Below the pieces are notes generated by a model. That model saw only the letters and a list, made by a program, of their open reading frames with translations, was not told the origin of the DNA and did no database searches. Positions 11,187 through 37,719 of a stretch of 37,719 nucleotides of DNA are shown here, piece after piece. The number at the start of each line of letters is the position of its first letter. The first letter of the stretch is position 1. The DNA is from Gammaproteobacteria bacterium (GTDB lineage Bacteria; Pseudomonadota; Gammaproteobacteria; Ga0077536). Position numbers and translations under genes: made by a program. The stretch is from positions 1 through 37,719 of the forward strand of contig JALRCR010000009.1 in assembly GCA_023257255.1 (NCBI GenBank). Reading direction: 5' to 3'.

Positions 11187-11806
11187 GCAACAGCCCAAGC
11201 TCGGCCCCGGACCCGTTGCCGCTTTTCCCCCTGCAGACGGTGCTGTTTCCGGGCAGTGAACTCCGTTTGCGAATCTTCGAGCCACGCTATCTGGAATTGG
11301 TGCGGAACTCGCTCCGGGCGGGCACCTGCTTTGGCATTCCGCCGATACGGCGGGGCAATGAGGCAGGCACACCAGCCACCCCCTACGGGGTGGGCACATT
11401 GGCACGCATCACCGACTGGGATCAGGGCGCGGATGGCCTGCTCGGCATCGTCGTCGAAGGATCTGAGCGCTTCCAGATTATCGACACCAAGGTCAGTAGC
11501 AGCGGTCTGTTAATGGCCGAGGTGTATTGGCTGCCGACACCAAAGCCCGCAGCGGTTCCCCTGACCTTTCAGTATCTTGGAGACCTTTTGCAAAGTCTGC
11601 TTGAGTTCATGCCGATCGCAGCCACAGCTGCAAGCGCGACCCTTGGTGCCGGCGAACTGCTGGCATACCGCCTGGCGGAACGGCTCCCCTTAGACCTCGA
11701 ACAGCGGGCCGACTTGCTCGCCATGGACTCCACTGAGCGCCAGCTCGCGTTCTGCGAAGAGCAGGTCGAACGCCTCATAAAACGCACACCGACCGGGCTG
11801 CACTAG
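11183..11806 (+). CDS. LON peptidase substrate-binding domain protein
   Basis: The 207-aa protein is a stand-alone LON N-terminal (substrate-binding) domain: LPLFPLQTVLFPGSELRLRIFEPRY at the start, then a VGTLARI/GIVVEGSERFQI beta core and an Arg/Glu-rich helical end. It lacks the AAA and protease domains of Lon. Such short proteins are widespread and of unproven role, perhaps in recognising unfolded substrates. Its ATG overlaps the mpl stop by 4 nt, so it is co-translated with mpl. Confidence 0.9.
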   Translation: MSNSPSSAPDPLPLFPLQTVLFPGSELRLRIFEPRYLELVRNSLRAGTCFGIPPIRRGNEAGTPATPYGVGTLARITDWDQGADGLLGIVVEGSERFQIIDTKVSSSGLLMAEVYWLPTPKPAAVPLTFQYLGDLLQSLLEFMPIAATAASATLGAGELLAYRLAERLPLDLEQRADLLAMDSTERQLAFCEEQVERLIKRTPTGLH

Positions 11807-32527: not shown

Positions 32528-33163
32528 ATGAAGCTCTACGACTGTGCAATGGCCCCCAACCCGCGTCGGCTCCGCATTTTCATGGCCGAAAAGGGCATCG
32601 AGATCCCCAAGGTCGAAATCAACATCCTGGAAGGCGAGAACACCGGCCCGGCGTTTCTGGCGGTCAACCCGCGCGGGCTCTTGCCAACCCTGCAACTCGA
32701 CGACGGCACCTGCTTTGATGAAGTCATGGCCATTTGCCGCTATCTCGAAGCGCTCTATCCCTGGCAGCCGCTGCTGGGCCGCACGCCGCGCGAGCAGGGT
32801 CTGATCGAAAGCTTGCAACGCAAGGCCGAGTTCGACGGCATGATTGCCGGCTCTGAGGTCTTCCGTAACCAGCATCCGGCGTTCCTGTCGCGCAGTATTC
32901 CGGGCGGCGGCGGGCAGACCATCCCGGCCATCCCGGCGCTGATCGAGCGCGGCTCGCAAACCATCGAGCGCTTCTACGGGTGGCTTGAAAGCCTGCTGCA
33001 GCACACGCCGTTTCTGGCCGGCGACAGCTTGAGCATGGCCGACATCACGGCGCTTTGTGCCATCGATTTTCACGGCTGGGTGAAGCTCGGTATTCCGCCC
33101 GGCAACAAGGCGACGGCCGACTGGTACGGGCGCCTCAACGCGCGGCCCAGCGCGCAGGCCTGA
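32528..33163 (+). CDS. Glutathione S-transferase family protein
   Basis: The 211-aa protein has the thioredoxin-like N-terminal domain (MKLYDCAMAPNPRRLRIFMAEKG, then NPRGLLPTLQLDDG with the cis-proline and FDEVMAICRYLEALYP for glutathione binding) and a helical C-terminal domain with PFLAGDSLSMADITALCAI. The N-terminal active site has Ser/Cys replaced by Pro-Asn in APNPRR, as in many bacterial GSTs that open epoxides or cleave ethers. AAGGA lies about 8 nt before the ATG. Its place between the two P450-LLM units suggests it traps a reactive epoxide or quinone made by them, which is inference. Confidence 0.92.
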   Translation: MKLYDCAMAPNPRRLRIFMAEKGIEIPKVEINILEGENTGPAFLAVNPRGLLPTLQLDDGTCFDEVMAICRYLEALYPWQPLLGRTPREQGLIESLQRKAEFDGMIAGSEVFRNQHPAFLSRSIPGGGGQTIPAIPALIERGSQTIERFYGWLESLLQHTPFLAGDSLSMADITALCAIDFHGWVKLGIPPGNKATADWYGRLNARPSAQA

Positions 33164-33164
33164 A

Positions 33165-34544
33165 ATGTCTTCGGACGCCACACGACTGCCGCTGCCGCCC
33201 GGCCCGGGGCCGTTCGCCAGCATGCGCGCCTACGGCCGCAACCCGGCGGTCTATTTCCAGAAGCTCTTCGCCGAGTACGGCCCGGTGGTGCGCTGGCGCG
33301 GCTACATGGACATGTACCTGCTGAACAACCCGGACGACGTGCGCACGGTGCTCACGCAGGCCTGGCCGCGCTATACCAAGCGCAACATCGACTACCGCGT
33401 GCTGCGCCAGACCATGGGCGAGGGTCTGGTGACCAGCGATGGTGAGTTCTGGAGCCGTCAACGGCGGCTGATGCAGCCCATGTTTCATGCGCGAGTCGTG
33501 AACGGCTTCGATGCCGCGATCAATCGCGCCACGGCAGAGCTGGCCGCGCGCTGGCGCACACGGCCCGCGAATCAGGCTTTCGCGCTAGACCGCGAGATGA
33601 GCCGGCTGACCTTCCGCATCGTCGGCGAAACGCTCTTCGGTGCCGGCATCGAAGAACACGCCGAAGCCGTTGCCAGCCTGCTCGACGAAACCAACGTCAA
33701 TCCCAAAACCCTCTCGGCCGTGCTCACGCTCTGGCCCTGGCTGCCGGTGCCGAGCAACCGGCGCTTCAAGCGGCATCTGCAACTGCTGGACGACATCGTC
33801 TACGGGCTTATCGCGCGCCGCCGGGCGAGCGGTGAGCAGCGCGAAGATCTGCTCGGCCTGCTGCTTGCCGCGCGCGATGAACACGAGCGGCCGATGCCGG
33901 ACCGACAGATTCGCGATGAGGCCATCACCCTGCTGCTCGCCGGCCACGAGACCTCGGCCACCGCGCTCGACTGGACCTTCCATCTGCTGGGTCAGCATCC
34001 CGACGTCGAAGCCGAACTGCTGCACGAACTGCAGCAGGTCCTGCGTGGCGCGCCGGCCACGGCGGCCGATCTGGCCCGCCTGCCATTCCTCAAGCAGGTG
34101 GTGCAGGAATCGATGCGGCTTTACCCGCCGGTGTGGGGCCTGTCGCGCCGCGCCGAGCAAGACGCGGAATTTGGCGGCTACCGCATCCCCAAAGACGCCT
34201 ACGTAGTAGTGCTGCCCTACACCCTGCACCGGCATCCGGACTGGTGGGAAGCGCCCGAACGCTTCGACCCCGCGCGCTTCAGCCCGGCGCGCAGCGAAGG
34301 CCGCCACTCCTACGCCTACATCCCGTTTTCGGCCGGCCCGCGCGCCTGCATCGGCATCGGGATGTCGATGCTCGAAGTCCAGCTGGTGCTGGCCCAGCTG
34401 CTGCCGCAGTTCGAGGTTCGCACGGTGCCGGGACATCCGGTCATCCCGCAGCCCTCGGTCACCTACCGACCGCGCTTCGGCGTGCGAGCAACGGCCAGCG
34501 TGCGCGTAATCACCGCCCCCGACCTGCGTAGAGGTGCAGCATGA
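33165..34544 (+). CDS. Cytochrome P450 (copy B)
   Basis: This 459-aa P450 has the proline-rich hinge LPLPPGPGPF at its N-terminus, the I-helix AGHETS (259-264), ExxR at Glu315-Arg318, DPARFSPARSEGRHSYAYIP and the heme loop FSAGPRACIG with Cys395. It is soluble and lacks a fused reductase. It is clearly paralogous to copy A at 30116, sharing GLVTSDG, LMQPMFH, RRASGE and LPFLKQVVQESMRL. It starts 1 nt after the GST stop and overlaps the next LLM gene by 4 nt, so translation is coupled. The C-terminal tail (about 55 residues beyond the heme helix) differs from copy A. Confidence 0.95.
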   Translation: MSSDATRLPLPPGPGPFASMRAYGRNPAVYFQKLFAEYGPVVRWRGYMDMYLLNNPDDVRTVLTQAWPRYTKRNIDYRVLRQTMGEGLVTSDGEFWSRQRRLMQPMFHARVVNGFDAAINRATAELAARWRTRPANQAFALDREMSRLTFRIVGETLFGAGIEEHAEAVASLLDETNVNPKTLSAVLTLWPWLPVPSNRRFKRHLQLLDDIVYGLIARRRASGEQREDLLGLLLAARDEHERPMPDRQIRDEAITLLLAGHETSATALDWTFHLLGQHPDVEAELLHELQQVLRGAPATAADLARLPFLKQVVQESMRLYPPVWGLSRRAEQDAEFGGYRIPKDAYVVVLPYTLHRHPDWWEAPERFDPARFSPARSEGRHSYAYIPFSAGPRACIGIGMSMLEVQLVLAQLLPQFEVRTVPGHPVIPQPSVTYRPRFGVRATASVRVITAPDLRRGAA

Positions 34545-35386
34545 AATTCGGTTTATTCGGCATCAACATGAACGCCTGCGCCGTGCCGGACACCGCGCGG
34601 CGGGTAGCGCAGGCGGCAGAAGCCGCGGGGTTCGAGTCGCTATGGACCGGCGAGCACGTCGTGCTGCCCGATCCGCAGGTCGCGCCCTCACCGCTGCCAC
34701 CGCACTATCCGCTGCTCGACCCCGCCGTCGCGCTGGCCTTCCTCGCCGCCCACACCACGCGCATTCGCCTTGGCACCGGCATCATCATCCTGCCCCAGCG
34801 CAATCCGCTGGTGCTGGCAAAAGAACTGGCGAGTCTCGACGTGGTGTCCAACGGCCGGCTGATTTTTGGGCTGGGGGTGGGCTATCTCAAATCGGAGTTC
34901 GATGCCCTGGGCGTGTCGTTCGCGCACAAGGGCGCCCGCGCCATCGATTACCTGCAAGCCATGCAGGCGGTGTGGACGCAAGCCGAGCCGACGTATGCAG
35001 GGCGCTTCGTGAGTTTCGGCGGCATTCAGGCCAAACCGCAGCCGGTGCAGCAGCCGCTGCCGAGCGTCATCGGCGGTCACACCCAAGCGGCCTTTGAGCG
35101 CGCCGTGCGCCACGCCCACGGCTGGTACGGCTTCGCGCTGGATGTAGCGGCCACCGAGCGTTGTCTCGCCGGCTTGCGCGAGGCAGCGCAAACCGTCGAG
35201 CGGCCGGCCGCGCTCGGCGCGCTCGAAATCAGCATCACACCGGCCGCGAGGCTCACGCCCGAACTCATCGACGGCTACGCCGCTGCCGGCGTGCACCGGC
35301 TGATTCCGTTTCCTCGCCTGAAGACCGGCGACGAGTTGCTCGCCTTTATCGACGAAACGGCAACGCTGCTCACGCCCGACGGCTGA
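34541..35386 (+). CDS. LLM class oxidoreductase (copy B)
   Basis: The 281-aa luciferase-like barrel starts with MKFGLFGINMNACAV and has AEAAGFESLWTGEHVVLPD, TRIRLGTGIIILPQRNPL, SNGRLIFGLGVGYLKSEFDALGV and a C-terminal PFPRLKTGDELLAFIDE. It resembles the short LLM subgroup often labelled F420-dependent (TIGR03619-like). Whether FMN or F420 is used cannot be told. Its ATG overlaps the P450 B stop (ATGA), so the two are likely made in equal amounts. It is more diverged from LLM copy A than the P450s are from each other. A 23-bp inverted repeat follows at 35416. Confidence 0.9.
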   Translation: MKFGLFGINMNACAVPDTARRVAQAAEAAGFESLWTGEHVVLPDPQVAPSPLPPHYPLLDPAVALAFLAAHTTRIRLGTGIIILPQRNPLVLAKELASLDVVSNGRLIFGLGVGYLKSEFDALGVSFAHKGARAIDYLQAMQAVWTQAEPTYAGRFVSFGGIQAKPQPVQQPLPSVIGGHTQAAFERAVRHAHGWYGFALDVAATERCLAGLREAAQTVERPAALGALEISITPAARLTPELIDGYAAAGVHRLIPFPRLKTGDELLAFIDETATLLTPDG

Positions 35387-35415
35387 ACCCGCGCCCCGCA
35401 ACTCGTCTATTCGCC

Positions 35416-35479
35416 AATTTGGGGTCAGAGTAAAAACTAGCCAGAGTCTGCGGTCGAGTTTTTACTCTGACCCCAAATT
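35416..35479. repeat. Perfect 23-bp inverted repeat (REP-like palindromic element)
   Basis: The left arm (35416-35438) and right arm (35457-35479) are perfect reverse complements over 23 nt, separated by 18 nt. The core reads TTTGGGGTCAGAGTAAAAA. From memory, this core is common in many proteobacterial genomes next to Y1/IS200-like (RAYT) transposases, so this may be a non-autonomous REP-type element. It lies between convergent LLM genes, and its RNA hairpin could end transcription from both sides. No transposase is in the window. Confidence 0.8.
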
Positions 35480-35494
35480 CTGAGCAGTCCGGGA

Positions 35495-36418
35495 TCAGGC
35501 GAACTCGCCCCGCACCGCTGCGAGGAAATCGAAGGTCCGGTCGAAGGCGCCCGGGTCGACCTCGGCGATCGAGGCGTTGAAATCGGTCACGCCGGCGTCC
35601 CGCAGGCGCAGCAGCTGTTCGCGAAGCTGGGCCTCATCGCCAACCAGCGCCGCGTCGCCAGGACCGCGATGTCCCTCGCGTTCCAGCATTGCGCGGTAGC
35701 TCGGCAGCTGGCCGTAGATCGCGAGCGAGCGGGCAATCTTCTCGCGCGCGGCGTCAACCTCATGGGTAAGCACAATCGGCAGACCGGCGATAATCCGCGG
35801 CACCGGTCGACCCGCCGCCGCTGCGGCCGCAGCCAGCGTGGGACGAATGTGGGTAGCCAGCGTTTGCGGCCCCGTCATCCAGGTGCTGGTGCCGTCGGCC
35901 ACCCGCCCGGTCAGGCGCAGCATCTGCTCGCCGAGCGCAGCCACCACCACCGGCACATCGACCACGCCCGGCACGTCGATCTGCAGGTTGGCGATGCGAT
36001 ACAACTCGCCTTCAAAGTTGACCATCTCCCCGCGTAGCAGCGGCCGCAGCACCGACAGGTATTCCCGCATGTGTCGCACCGGCTGGGCGTAAGACAGCCC
36101 CAGCATGCCTTCCACGACCCGCTGGTGCGACAGGCCAATGCCCAGCACGAAGCGCTGGCCGCAGAGCTGCGCGGTGGTCAGCGCCTGTTGCGCCATCGCC
36201 ATCGGATGCCGGGGATAGGTCGGCGTGACCGCTGTACCGAGTTCGATGCGGGAGGTCTCGCGGCCGGCCACGCCCAGGGCGGCAATCGCATCGATGCTGC
36301 GGATATGCGCCATCCACAGCGAGGCAAAGCCGGCCGCCTCGGCGCGCTTCGCGAGCGTCACAATGCTGTCGACGGTGACGCCGGTCATACTGGCGCCGCT
36401 CATAAGACCAAATCGCAT
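35495..36418 (-). CDS. LLM class flavin-dependent oxidoreductase (third copy)
   Basis: The 307-aa luciferase-like protein begins MRFGLMSGASMTGVTVDSIV and contains RAEAAGFASLWMAHI, SRIELGTAVTPTYPRHPMAMAQQA, QRFVLGIGLSHQRVVEGMLGLSY and VPVVVAALGEQMLRLTGRVADGTSTW. This pattern is close to LLM enzymes often annotated as F420-dependent in actinobacteria, yet here FMN is more probable. The ATG at 36418 has AGGA about 8 nt upstream and is preferred over a non-ATG start 102 nt further upstream. It faces the P450 run across the inverted repeat, so it is transcribed separately, but shares the gene type. Confidence 0.92.
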   Translation of the reverse strand: MRFGLMSGASMTGVTVDSIVTLAKRAEAAGFASLWMAHIRSIDAIAALGVAGRETSRIELGTAVTPTYPRHPMAMAQQALTTAQLCGQRFVLGIGLSHQRVVEGMLGLSYAQPVRHMREYLSVLRPLLRGEMVNFEGELYRIANLQIDVPGVVDVPVVVAALGEQMLRLTGRVADGTSTWMTGPQTLATHIRPTLAAAAAAAGRPVPRIIAGLPIVLTHEVDAAREKIARSLAIYGQLPSYRAMLEREGHRGPGDAALVGDEAQLREQLLRLRDAGVTDFNASIAEVDPGAFDRTFDFLAAVRGEFA

Positions 36419-36571
36419 GGGTAGATTCCTGTGGCTGATGGGAGCTGGCGCGCGTCGACGAGCGCGCGGACGACCGCAGTGTGGCGAGCCGTGGTGAACG
36501 GTACAAGCAAACCCCGTCACGGCGCGCGCCGCCCCAACAATTCTGCCTGCCTTCCACTACACTCCCGCCCC

Positions 36572-37719
36572 ATGTTGTCCTTCCGTGATGTCGCGCTCCG
36601 CCGCGGCGGCAAAGTGCTGTTTTCCGGCGTGAGCTTCACCGTTCATGCCGGGCAGAAAGTAGGCCTGACCGGCGCCAACGGCGCGGGCAAGTCGAGCCTG
36701 TTCGCGATGATTCGCGGCGAGCTGGGCGCCGACAGCGGCGAAGTCGAGGTGCCCTCGCATCTCACGCTCGCGCACGTTGCGCAGGAAACCCCGCCCGACC
36801 CGCGACCCGCGCTGGAATACGCGCTGGACGGCGATGTTGAATTGCGTCAGATCGAAGCGGCGCTGGCCCGCGAGGAGGCCAGCGGCGGGGCGCGCCTCGG
36901 CGAACTCCACGAGCGCATGGCGACGATCGACGGCTATGCCGCGCCGGCCCGCGCAGCTAAATTGCTAAACGGTCTTGGCTTCGCACCGGGCAGCGAACTG
37001 CAGCCGGTCAACGCCTTCTCCGGCGGCTGGCGGATGCGGCTGAACCTGGCCCGCGCGCTGATGTGCCGCTCCGATCTACTGCTGCTCGACGAACCCACCA
37101 ACCACCTCGACCTCGACGCCGTCATCTGGCTGGAAAGCTGGCTACTGGCCTACCCCGGCACGCTCATCCTGATCTCCCACGACCGGGATTTTCTGGACCG
37201 TGTGGTGGGCGTCATCGCACACATGGAACAGGGTGGTCTGCGGCTTTACACCGGCAACTACACCGCCTTTGAGCGCGCCCGCGCCGAGCAGCTCGCCGGC
37301 CAGCAGGCGGCATTCGAGAAGCAGCAGCGTGAAGTCGCGCATATGCAGTCTTTTGTGGAGCGCTTCCGCTACAAGGCGACCAAGGCGCGGCAGGCGCAGA
37401 GCCGCCTGAAAGCGCTGGAGCGACTCGAGCTGATCGCCCCGGCGCACGTCGATTCGCCCTTCAGCTTTGCCTTCCAGAAACCGCGCAAGCTGCCGCAGCC
37501 GCTGCTGACGCTGGACCGCATCACCGTCGGCTACGGCGAGCGGGTGATTCTCGACAAGGTGAAGCTCTCCATTGCGCCCGGCGATCGGATTGCGCTGCTG
37601 GGTGCCAACGGCGCCGGTAAATCCACGCTCATCAAATTGCTGGCCGGTGAGCTCGCGCCGCAGGGCGGTGAACTCCACGGCGCACAGGATCTGGCGGTCG
37701 GCTATTTCGCCCAGCATCA
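36572..37719 (+). CDS. yheS: ABC-F family ATP-binding protein YheS, C-terminus outside window
   Basis: At least 382 codons are visible and the frame runs off the end. ABC-F proteins bind the ribosomal E-site and rescue or regulate translation. The first ABC domain has Walker A GANGAGKS (34-41), signature FSGGWRMRLNLARAL and Walker B LLLLDEPTNHLDLDAVIWLE. The linker carries VAHMQSFVERFRYKATKARQAQSR, and the second Walker A GANGAGKSTL starts the second domain. The sequence is very close to E. coli YheS as I remember it, including LILISHDRDFLD and LIAPAHVD. No Shine-Dalgarno precedes the ATG; TACACT ends 8 nt upstream, as at 29233. It is divergent from the third LLM gene. Confidence 0.95.
   Translation, partial: MLSFRDVALRRGGKVLFSGVSFTVHAGQKVGLTGANGAGKSSLFAMIRGELGADSGEVEVPSHLTLAHVAQETPPDPRPALEYALDGDVELRQIEAALAREEASGGARLGELHERMATIDGYAAPARAAKLLNGLGFAPGSELQPVNAFSGGWRMRLNLARALMCRSDLLLLDEPTNHLDLDAVIWLESWLLAYPGTLILISHDRDFLDRVVGVIAHMEQGGLRLYTGNYTAFERARAEQLAGQQAAFEKQQREVAHMQSFVERFRYKATKARQAQSRLKALERLELIAPAHVDSPFSFAFQKPRKLPQPLLTLDRITVGYGERVILDKVKLSIAPGDRIALLGANGAGKSTLIKLLAGELAPQGGELHGAQDLAVGYFAQH

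Follow-up and report, generated by a model that had tools for sequence, protein, structure and literature searches.

The inverted repeat at positions 35416-35479 of the window, by which we mean the whole 37,719-nt stretch of DNA analysed here, is very probably a non-autonomous dimer of TIRtron ends, REPIN- or MITE-like in form and presumably moved by a TIRYT, as comparison of its sequence with that of its relatives suggests. A dimer of terminal repeats (TIRs) is the best reading of the feature because its core belongs to a dispersed family, because a TIRYT gene on contig C504 of the same genome is flanked by that core, and because a sister unit is found in the related genome G001. What the data show is the copy number, the ends held in common, the co-variation of these ends with the transposase, the conserved catalytic motifs and, for a small number of orthologous sites, whether a dimer is there or not. 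As a TIR dimer of a TIRtron, the window feature is an element of an already-known kind.

Structure and setting of the inverted repeat

The original prediction described a perfect 23-bp inverted repeat with an 18-nt spacer between convergent genes, and the two 23-nt arms are indeed 100% complementary. The repeat and the genes beside it, both of which match Pfam Bac_luciferase, are arranged as follows.

34541..35386, + strand, luciferase-like monooxygenase gene, 281 aa (PF00296, E 1e-50; stop 29 bp before the repeat)
35416..35438, + strand, left arm of the terminal repeat (35421-35434 being the core GGGGTCAGAGTAAA)
35439..35456, no strand, spacer of 18 nt
35457..35479, - strand, right arm of the terminal repeat (35461-35474 being the core, on the - strand)
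35495..36520, - strand, convergent luciferase-like monooxygenase gene, 341 aa (PF00296, E 7.4e-56; stop 15 bp past the repeat)

Within the window the exact core GGGGTCAGAGTAAA occurs in two places only, which are the two arms. In the fixed register described below, TTT at 35418-35420 of the left arm pairs with AAA at 35434-35436, and beyond these an A.C mismatch (35417/35437) is followed by an A-T pair (35416/35438); the family stem is imperfect in the window, with A.C at position -4 in both arms. GTAG-tagged REPs (subclasses 2.2, 2.4, 2.5, 2.7 and 2.8) were considered and rejected, the arm AATTTGGGGTCAGAGTAAAAACT having neither GTAG nor GTGG at its foot.

The 83-nt segment 35408-35490 is predicted to fold strongly both as DNA (-25 kcal/mol, z -7.67) and as RNA (-40.6 kcal/mol, z -7.04), and in each case 0 of 200 dinucleotide shuffles was as good. 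By eye, neither strand has a T-run directly outside the stem, which makes a classical intrinsic terminator unlikely. A terminator scan of 34500-36600 found none; since the scan admits loops of 3-8 nt, the 18-nt loop of the window repeat lies outside its reach.

The luciferase-like gene pair, together with the repeat, aligns end to end with the related genome G005 at 93%, and in the G005 copy the right arm has decayed. Because the site is common to the two genomes and one arm has changed in G005, the copy is older than the G005 split and has not been strictly kept. In a further relative, G003, the two genes are likewise present in unchanged order, separated by a tandem array (10.3 copies of 40 bp) in place of the repeat. 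This array (L072:1060-1472) is of the CGTTCGCGCTGAGCCTGTCGAAGCGC type, and the same kind of 40-bp array lies beside the G001 copy of the second luciferase-like gene (L071, near the contig end); no tandem repeat of the CGTTCGCGCTGAGCCTGTCGAAGCGC type was found in the window. The window also contains, at 32528-36520, a run of genes for a GST, a cytochrome P450 and the two luciferase-like monooxygenases that is likely to be a catabolic cluster.

A dispersed family of repeats

The draft genome from which the window comes (G000; 3.89 Mb in 549 contigs, 86.93% complete, 6.18% contamination) contains 48 exact copies of the 14-nt core GGGGTCAGAGTAAA, 24 per strand, spread over 21 contigs, where about 0.03 would be expected by chance (arithmetic at uniform base composition) and where the reversed pattern has 0 copies. 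The original prediction had made a genome-wide count of the core one of its checks, and the core is far from single-copy; the outcome that was to count against that prediction, one copy only and no transposase of a related type, is not what the genome shows. Five of the 58 relatives surveyed, counting the draft itself, contain it (G000 48, G001 54, G005 22, G003 10 and G013 2); the first four belong to the same genus and G013 to the same family, and the core is absent from the other 53, including 5 of the 9 genomes of the genus. The reversed core, used as a control over the 58, matched once, in G015.

When up to 3-4 mismatches are allowed, cores in G000 form 23 plus-then-minus pairs within 75 nt with their GGGG sides outward, a count that includes the upstream end of the transposase unit itself. 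The opposite, minus-then-plus arrangement within 75 nt occurs twice, both times between successive dimers on C525. Twelve of the 23 listed dimers have exactly 54 nt between their 16-mer cores; the window dimer, with 38 nt, is of a short type, to which a few others with 30, 35 and 35 nt also belong. The inner sides of the dimers resemble the upstream end of the TIRtron: the better arm agrees at 5.87 of 12 bases over the 23 dimers (shuffled, 3.81), or at 5.59 of 12 over 22 dimers (arithmetic) when the TIRtron itself is left out, and the inner side of the right arm in the window, read on the minus strand (CTCGACCGCAGA), agrees at 8 of 12 bases with the TIRtron end that precedes the transposase gene. 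The 23 inverted pairs within 75 nt, the 48 exact cores and a Y1 gene together make up the arrangement of a REPIN. A literature search with GGGGTCAGAGTAAA matched only papers that, by title, concern mouse studies; GGGGTCAGA returned nothing on bacterial repeats, again by title, among the matches listed, and GGGGACAGA combined with repeat and transposase returned unrelated titles only.

An ORF heuristic places 12 of the 23 clusters in convergent settings and 10 in tandem ones, with no cluster flanked by divergent genes and one in a setting of unknown type, a count that leaves out clusters C503a and C542 and stands without a background rate. Such a distribution and the strong predicted hairpin, in DNA and RNA alike, could also indicate a selected element, that is, a hairpin between convergent genes that is retained because it acts on transcription in both directions or as a signal for mRNA 3' ends, and that mobility only delivered. 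This explanation is rather unlikely, given that the scan for terminators was negative (though its loops of 3-8 nt do not cover an 18-nt loop), that no T-run follows the stem, and that the right arm has decayed in G005 and is replaced, along with the rest of the repeat, by a tandem array in G003. In the explanation that we consider best, a dimer of TIRtron ends, the window copy was already decaying in G005 and needs no function of its own.

The TIRYT gene and its ends

A search with PF01797 (Y1_Tnp) gave one match over the cut-off in the draft, at C504:10041-10367 on the minus strand (E 1.6e-14; 54 bits, cut-off 23), and one further match below it, at C503. The C504 protein is 233 aa long, and this length and its single PF01797 match over the cut-off in the draft agree with subclass 2.1, for which PMC6006769 gives a median length of 238 aa and few intact copies per genome. 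Its motifs NHVH, WE and YIELNP correspond to those given for subclass 2.1 in Table 1 of that paper (HUH motif NHVH, W[EQ], and Y motif YIELNP), which equates the subclass with the TIRYTs of PMC3733652, described there as having ends that share GGGGWSAS. Residues H60, H62, W99, E100, Y120, N124 and P125 are invariant in 25 sequences. Against the NCBIfam model for REP-associated tyrosine transposases the protein scores 76.3 bits, just below the cut-off of 80. Its AlphaFold model (pLDDT 88.9) has E. coli TnpA-REP 4er8 as the best structural match (Foldseek E 4.8e-8), with Z 15.5 and rmsd 2.6 over 157 aligned residues. As to the C-terminal helix-turn-helix domain that characterises TIRYTs, the last 93 residues have no Pfam match at E up to 10, and helices 184-195 and 203-213 are found in the C-terminal part of the model. 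In its motifs, its GGGGWSAS ends and a predicted fold near that of E. coli TnpA-REP, the C504 protein fits a TIRYT (RAYT subclass 2.1).

The gene is flanked by inverted copies of the core, exact upstream and with two mismatches in the 16-mer downstream, and it provides the Y1 transposase with the same flanks for which the original prediction had proposed a search. The whole TIRtron measures about 0.82 kb, contains one TIRYT (Y1 HUH transposase) gene, and ends in GGGGTCAG upstream and AGGGTCAG downstream. Its sister gene in G001, 87% identical, has on each side an exact 19-nt inverted repeat, GGGGTCAG. A seed-based inverted-repeat search at the G000 unit (L039) found no match between the two ends because the downstream end has decayed by its two mismatches.

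Two distant Y1-like genes are also present in G000, at C12:6105-6680 (24%, E 9.4e-10) and C503:7885-8097 (37% over 71 residues, E 6.1e-8), in open frames of 365 and 356 aa. Among the relatives, too, Y1-like matches in frames of close to 350 aa appear repeatedly and are perhaps members of the long subclass 2.3; the C12 and C503 genes could also act in G000.

Terminal repeats beside related TIRYTs

TIRYT loci were collected by a scan of named genomes, in which the best 80 of 292 relatives were kept and one (L206) was dropped, leaving 79 whose flanks were long enough. A flanking inverted repeat with a score of at least 12 was found at 61 of these 79 loci and GGGGWSAS in both arms at 40, while 18 had no flanking repeat at score 12, all counts referring to the best 80 of 292. 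The same score was reached in 2 of 58 far flanks and 10 of 1580 shuffled flanks. Mismatched flank pairs between loci reached it in 575 of 2000 cases, 403 of them with the motif; this null is unhelpful because related TIRYTs share ends, and the far-flank and shuffle nulls were used instead. Among 26 further loci from the first search for relatives, 17 had an inverted repeat with a score of at least 12 and 10 had GGGGWSAS in both arms.

The ends co-vary with the enzyme: across 59 loci, TIR similarity follows protein identity with a Mantel r of 0.69 (0 of 2000 permutations). Relatives at 59-71% identity often have an identical GTCAGAGTAAAAACT tail, several Shewanella loci have GTCAGAGTAAACTT, and several loci of beta- and deltaproteobacteria have GACAGACCACGGTTT. 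The proposal that the repeat is a mobile palindrome associated with IS200/RAYT-like transposases is supported in G000 by the 48 cores and the one Y1 transposase with cores on both sides, and beyond G000 by an identical or similar core that adjoins related transposases in other Gammaproteobacteria.

MITEs mostly derive from DDE elements, and the window repeat resembles them in being short, non-coding and bounded by outward TIRs that come from a larger unit. Long outward-facing TIRs and dimers of constant size (12 of 23 have 54 nt) would suit a MITE derived from a DDE insertion sequence of the ordinary type, with TIRs in the classical sense. The ends enclose, however, a gene for a Y1/HUH protein, with which the ends co-vary across the 59 loci, so that the parent of the window repeat appears to be a Y1/HUH unit rather than a DDE insertion sequence, and we regard a DDE origin as highly improbable.

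A fixed-register palindrome in the terminal repeat

Across TIRYT loci the TIR is an imperfect palindrome in one fixed register, in which the four bases before GGGGWCAG covary with the four bases that start 13 nt after the first G. Arms were anchored at the first G, and the left flanks were dealt anew as the permutation. At offset 13, an average of 3.14 of the 6 possible Watson-Crick pairs was formed over 57 non-redundant arms, and of 2.11 under permutation (0 of 1000). Registers 12 and 14 were weaker shoulders, also above permutation in the larger sets (0 of 1000 and 39 of 1000 in the 57 arms), and no other register showed excess pairing in this set. At positions -1 to -4, pairs were formed in 33, 39, 39 and 31 of the 57 arms (expected 20.6, 20.1, 21.8 and 21.5) and comprised A-T, T-A, G-C and C-G; pairing beyond position -4 was not in excess in these arms. 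A second set of 79 matches gave 2.87 against 1.95 pairs (0 of 1000) and is not wholly independent, as it includes L039 and L040, every NGGGWCRS flank match and near-identical array copies. In a later test, in which each locus and each protein cluster contributed a single arm and L039 and L040 were left out, the 4-bp stem at offset 13 was matched by 5 of 2000 permutations for clusters of less than 50% identity (n=9) and by 0 of 2000 for those of less than 55% (n=13), 60% (n=23) and 65% (n=34). With one arm per cluster of less than 60% identity, the first set (n=11) gave a weak result (61 of 2000). Among the 13 most diverged loci, at least three of the four pairs were present in 6 and one or none in 4.

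Because the bases that flank the GGGG segment belong to the inverted repeat of both ends, they do not represent a target duplication, which would be direct. As far as sequence goes, the palindrome could be a hairpin or a double-stranded dyad site alike.

Comparison of orthologous sites

In G000, a remnant of 303 bp at C504:11218-11520 retains part of the TIRYT (11262-11459; query residues 158-225, 39%). The orthologous site is occupied in G003 by a dimer of about 70-75 bp, in G001 by a three-ended array of about 160 bp (C136:7830-7989), and in G005 by degenerate ends and about 0.8 kb of other DNA. This series fits the origin of bare dimers by internal loss from full units; exchange at the same C504 site may also account for it. 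A 1.7-kb block at L033:2298-4025, also on C504 of G000, contains the TIRYT and a neighbouring 326-aa ORF with core copies at its bounds, and its G003 counterpart consists of about 95 bp with degenerate TIR-like sequence.

For the empty-site search 12 flank pairs were joined, 10 were searched (those other than C503a and C11), and three sites were aligned in detail. Site C8 has a dimer in G000 and none in G005, G001 or G003; at site C127, G004 and G006 lack a dimer and that of G005 is decayed in part; site C78 has no dimer in G005. No target duplication was readable at these three sites because the spaces between the genes differ otherwise in filled and unfilled alleles. Several points count against the TIRtron reading: no excision or insertion event was observed, and cores are found in G005 and G003 without an intact close TIRYT, the orthologous transposase of G005 being reduced to a fragment, yet 22 cores remain there. 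The decayed downstream end of the unit in G000, the unreadable target duplication, the two distant Y1-like genes of G000 and the 18 of 79 TIRYT loci with no repeat at the threshold also weigh on that side.

The suggestion that the repeat marks the boundary of a catabolic island, prompted by the adjoining P450, GST and luciferase-like genes, is contradicted by the collinearity of both sides with G005 at 93%, by the gene pair kept in G003 and by the cores on 21 contigs of the draft, and it is scarcely credible.

Discussion

According to the TIRtron explanation, the window element would consist of two TIRs with their GGGG sides outward and nearly all of the inside lost, and the TIRtron at C504 would be its autonomous counterpart within G000. 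The TIRYT would most likely use its tyrosine to nick single-stranded DNA where the ends are folded, as might happen on the template of the lagging strand. We infer the nicking, the single-strand route and the role of the TIRYT as mover of the window copy, the nicking because the TnpA-REP family cleaves REP hairpins; E. coli and other TnpA-REP proteins do so with single-stranded hairpins in vitro (PMC8266576). The most likely outcome would be that TIR dimers are copied or moved into spaces downstream of genes. Any effect of the window dimer on mRNA ends would be secondary.

REPINs, or BIMEs, are reportedly moved by RAYTs, as Bertels and Rainey are said to have proposed in 2011. With the REPIN/BIME system of Nunvar 2010 (PMC2817692), as far as it is described in the passages used here, the family shares inverted pairs of short repeats in the space between genes, a transposase gene with inverted copies on each side, and the co-evolution of repeat and enzyme. 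It differs in that the TIRs have no GTAG foot and that their conserved motif is located within the palindrome instead of on its 5' side; the usual REP number given there is more than 100 copies per genome, against 48 exact cores in G000. The TIRYT/TIRtron system (Di Nocera 2013, PMC3733652; subclass 2.1 of Quentin 2018, PMC6006769) shares with the family the motifs NHVH, WE and YIELNP in a protein of about 233 aa, inverted ends with GGGGWSAS (PMC3733652), and TIR copies that are moderately abundant and occur singly, in dimers and in clusters. The exact core GGGGTCAGAGTAAA does not occur in the text passages of the TIRYT literature used here.

The difference from the TIRYTs described is that the TIRs here are palindromic in one fixed register, whereas the passages used from PMC6006769 report no REP-like sequences or structures for subclass 2.1, by automatic or manual search. 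Some TIRs are noted as self-complementary in PMC3733652, and the fixed-register palindrome around GGGGWCAG is a new point relative to the parts of these two papers drawn upon. It may be, and we advance this tentatively as a possibility of nearly even weight, that the TIRs of TIRYTs, as single-strand substrates, make up a large REP-like class, the third of its kind, in which a covarying, clade-specific 4-bp stem closes GGGGWCAG(N5) and the enzyme reads GGGG inside the hairpin. RAYTs read GTAG at the foot of the hairpin, whereas a TIRYT would read a conserved 13-nt GGGG segment within it. If this is true, the TIR and GTAG families would both belong, as variants, to a single ssDNA system, and dimers of TIRs, including that of the window, would be the REPINs of the third class.

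TIRYTs occur in 14.9% of strains (PMC6006769), and in the literature searched the name appears in PMC3733652 and PMC6006769 only; the passages found there do not state how TIRYTs recognise their ends. They are known but little-studied single-strand DNA transposases that appear to spread the window repeat family through the genome. In the genus, full units, remnants of them and dimers alone are found at positions that can be compared, which offers a natural series for the origin of a REPIN-like element.

Other arrangements of TIRs were seen beside TIRYT genes. At L051, L167 and L175 the gene is flanked on both sides by full double palindromes, each a TIR dimer with a tiny loop. At L046, L047 and L048 the TIRs form tandem arrays with a unit length of about 20-30 nt; this arrangement suggests that insertion took place repeatedly beside an end already present.
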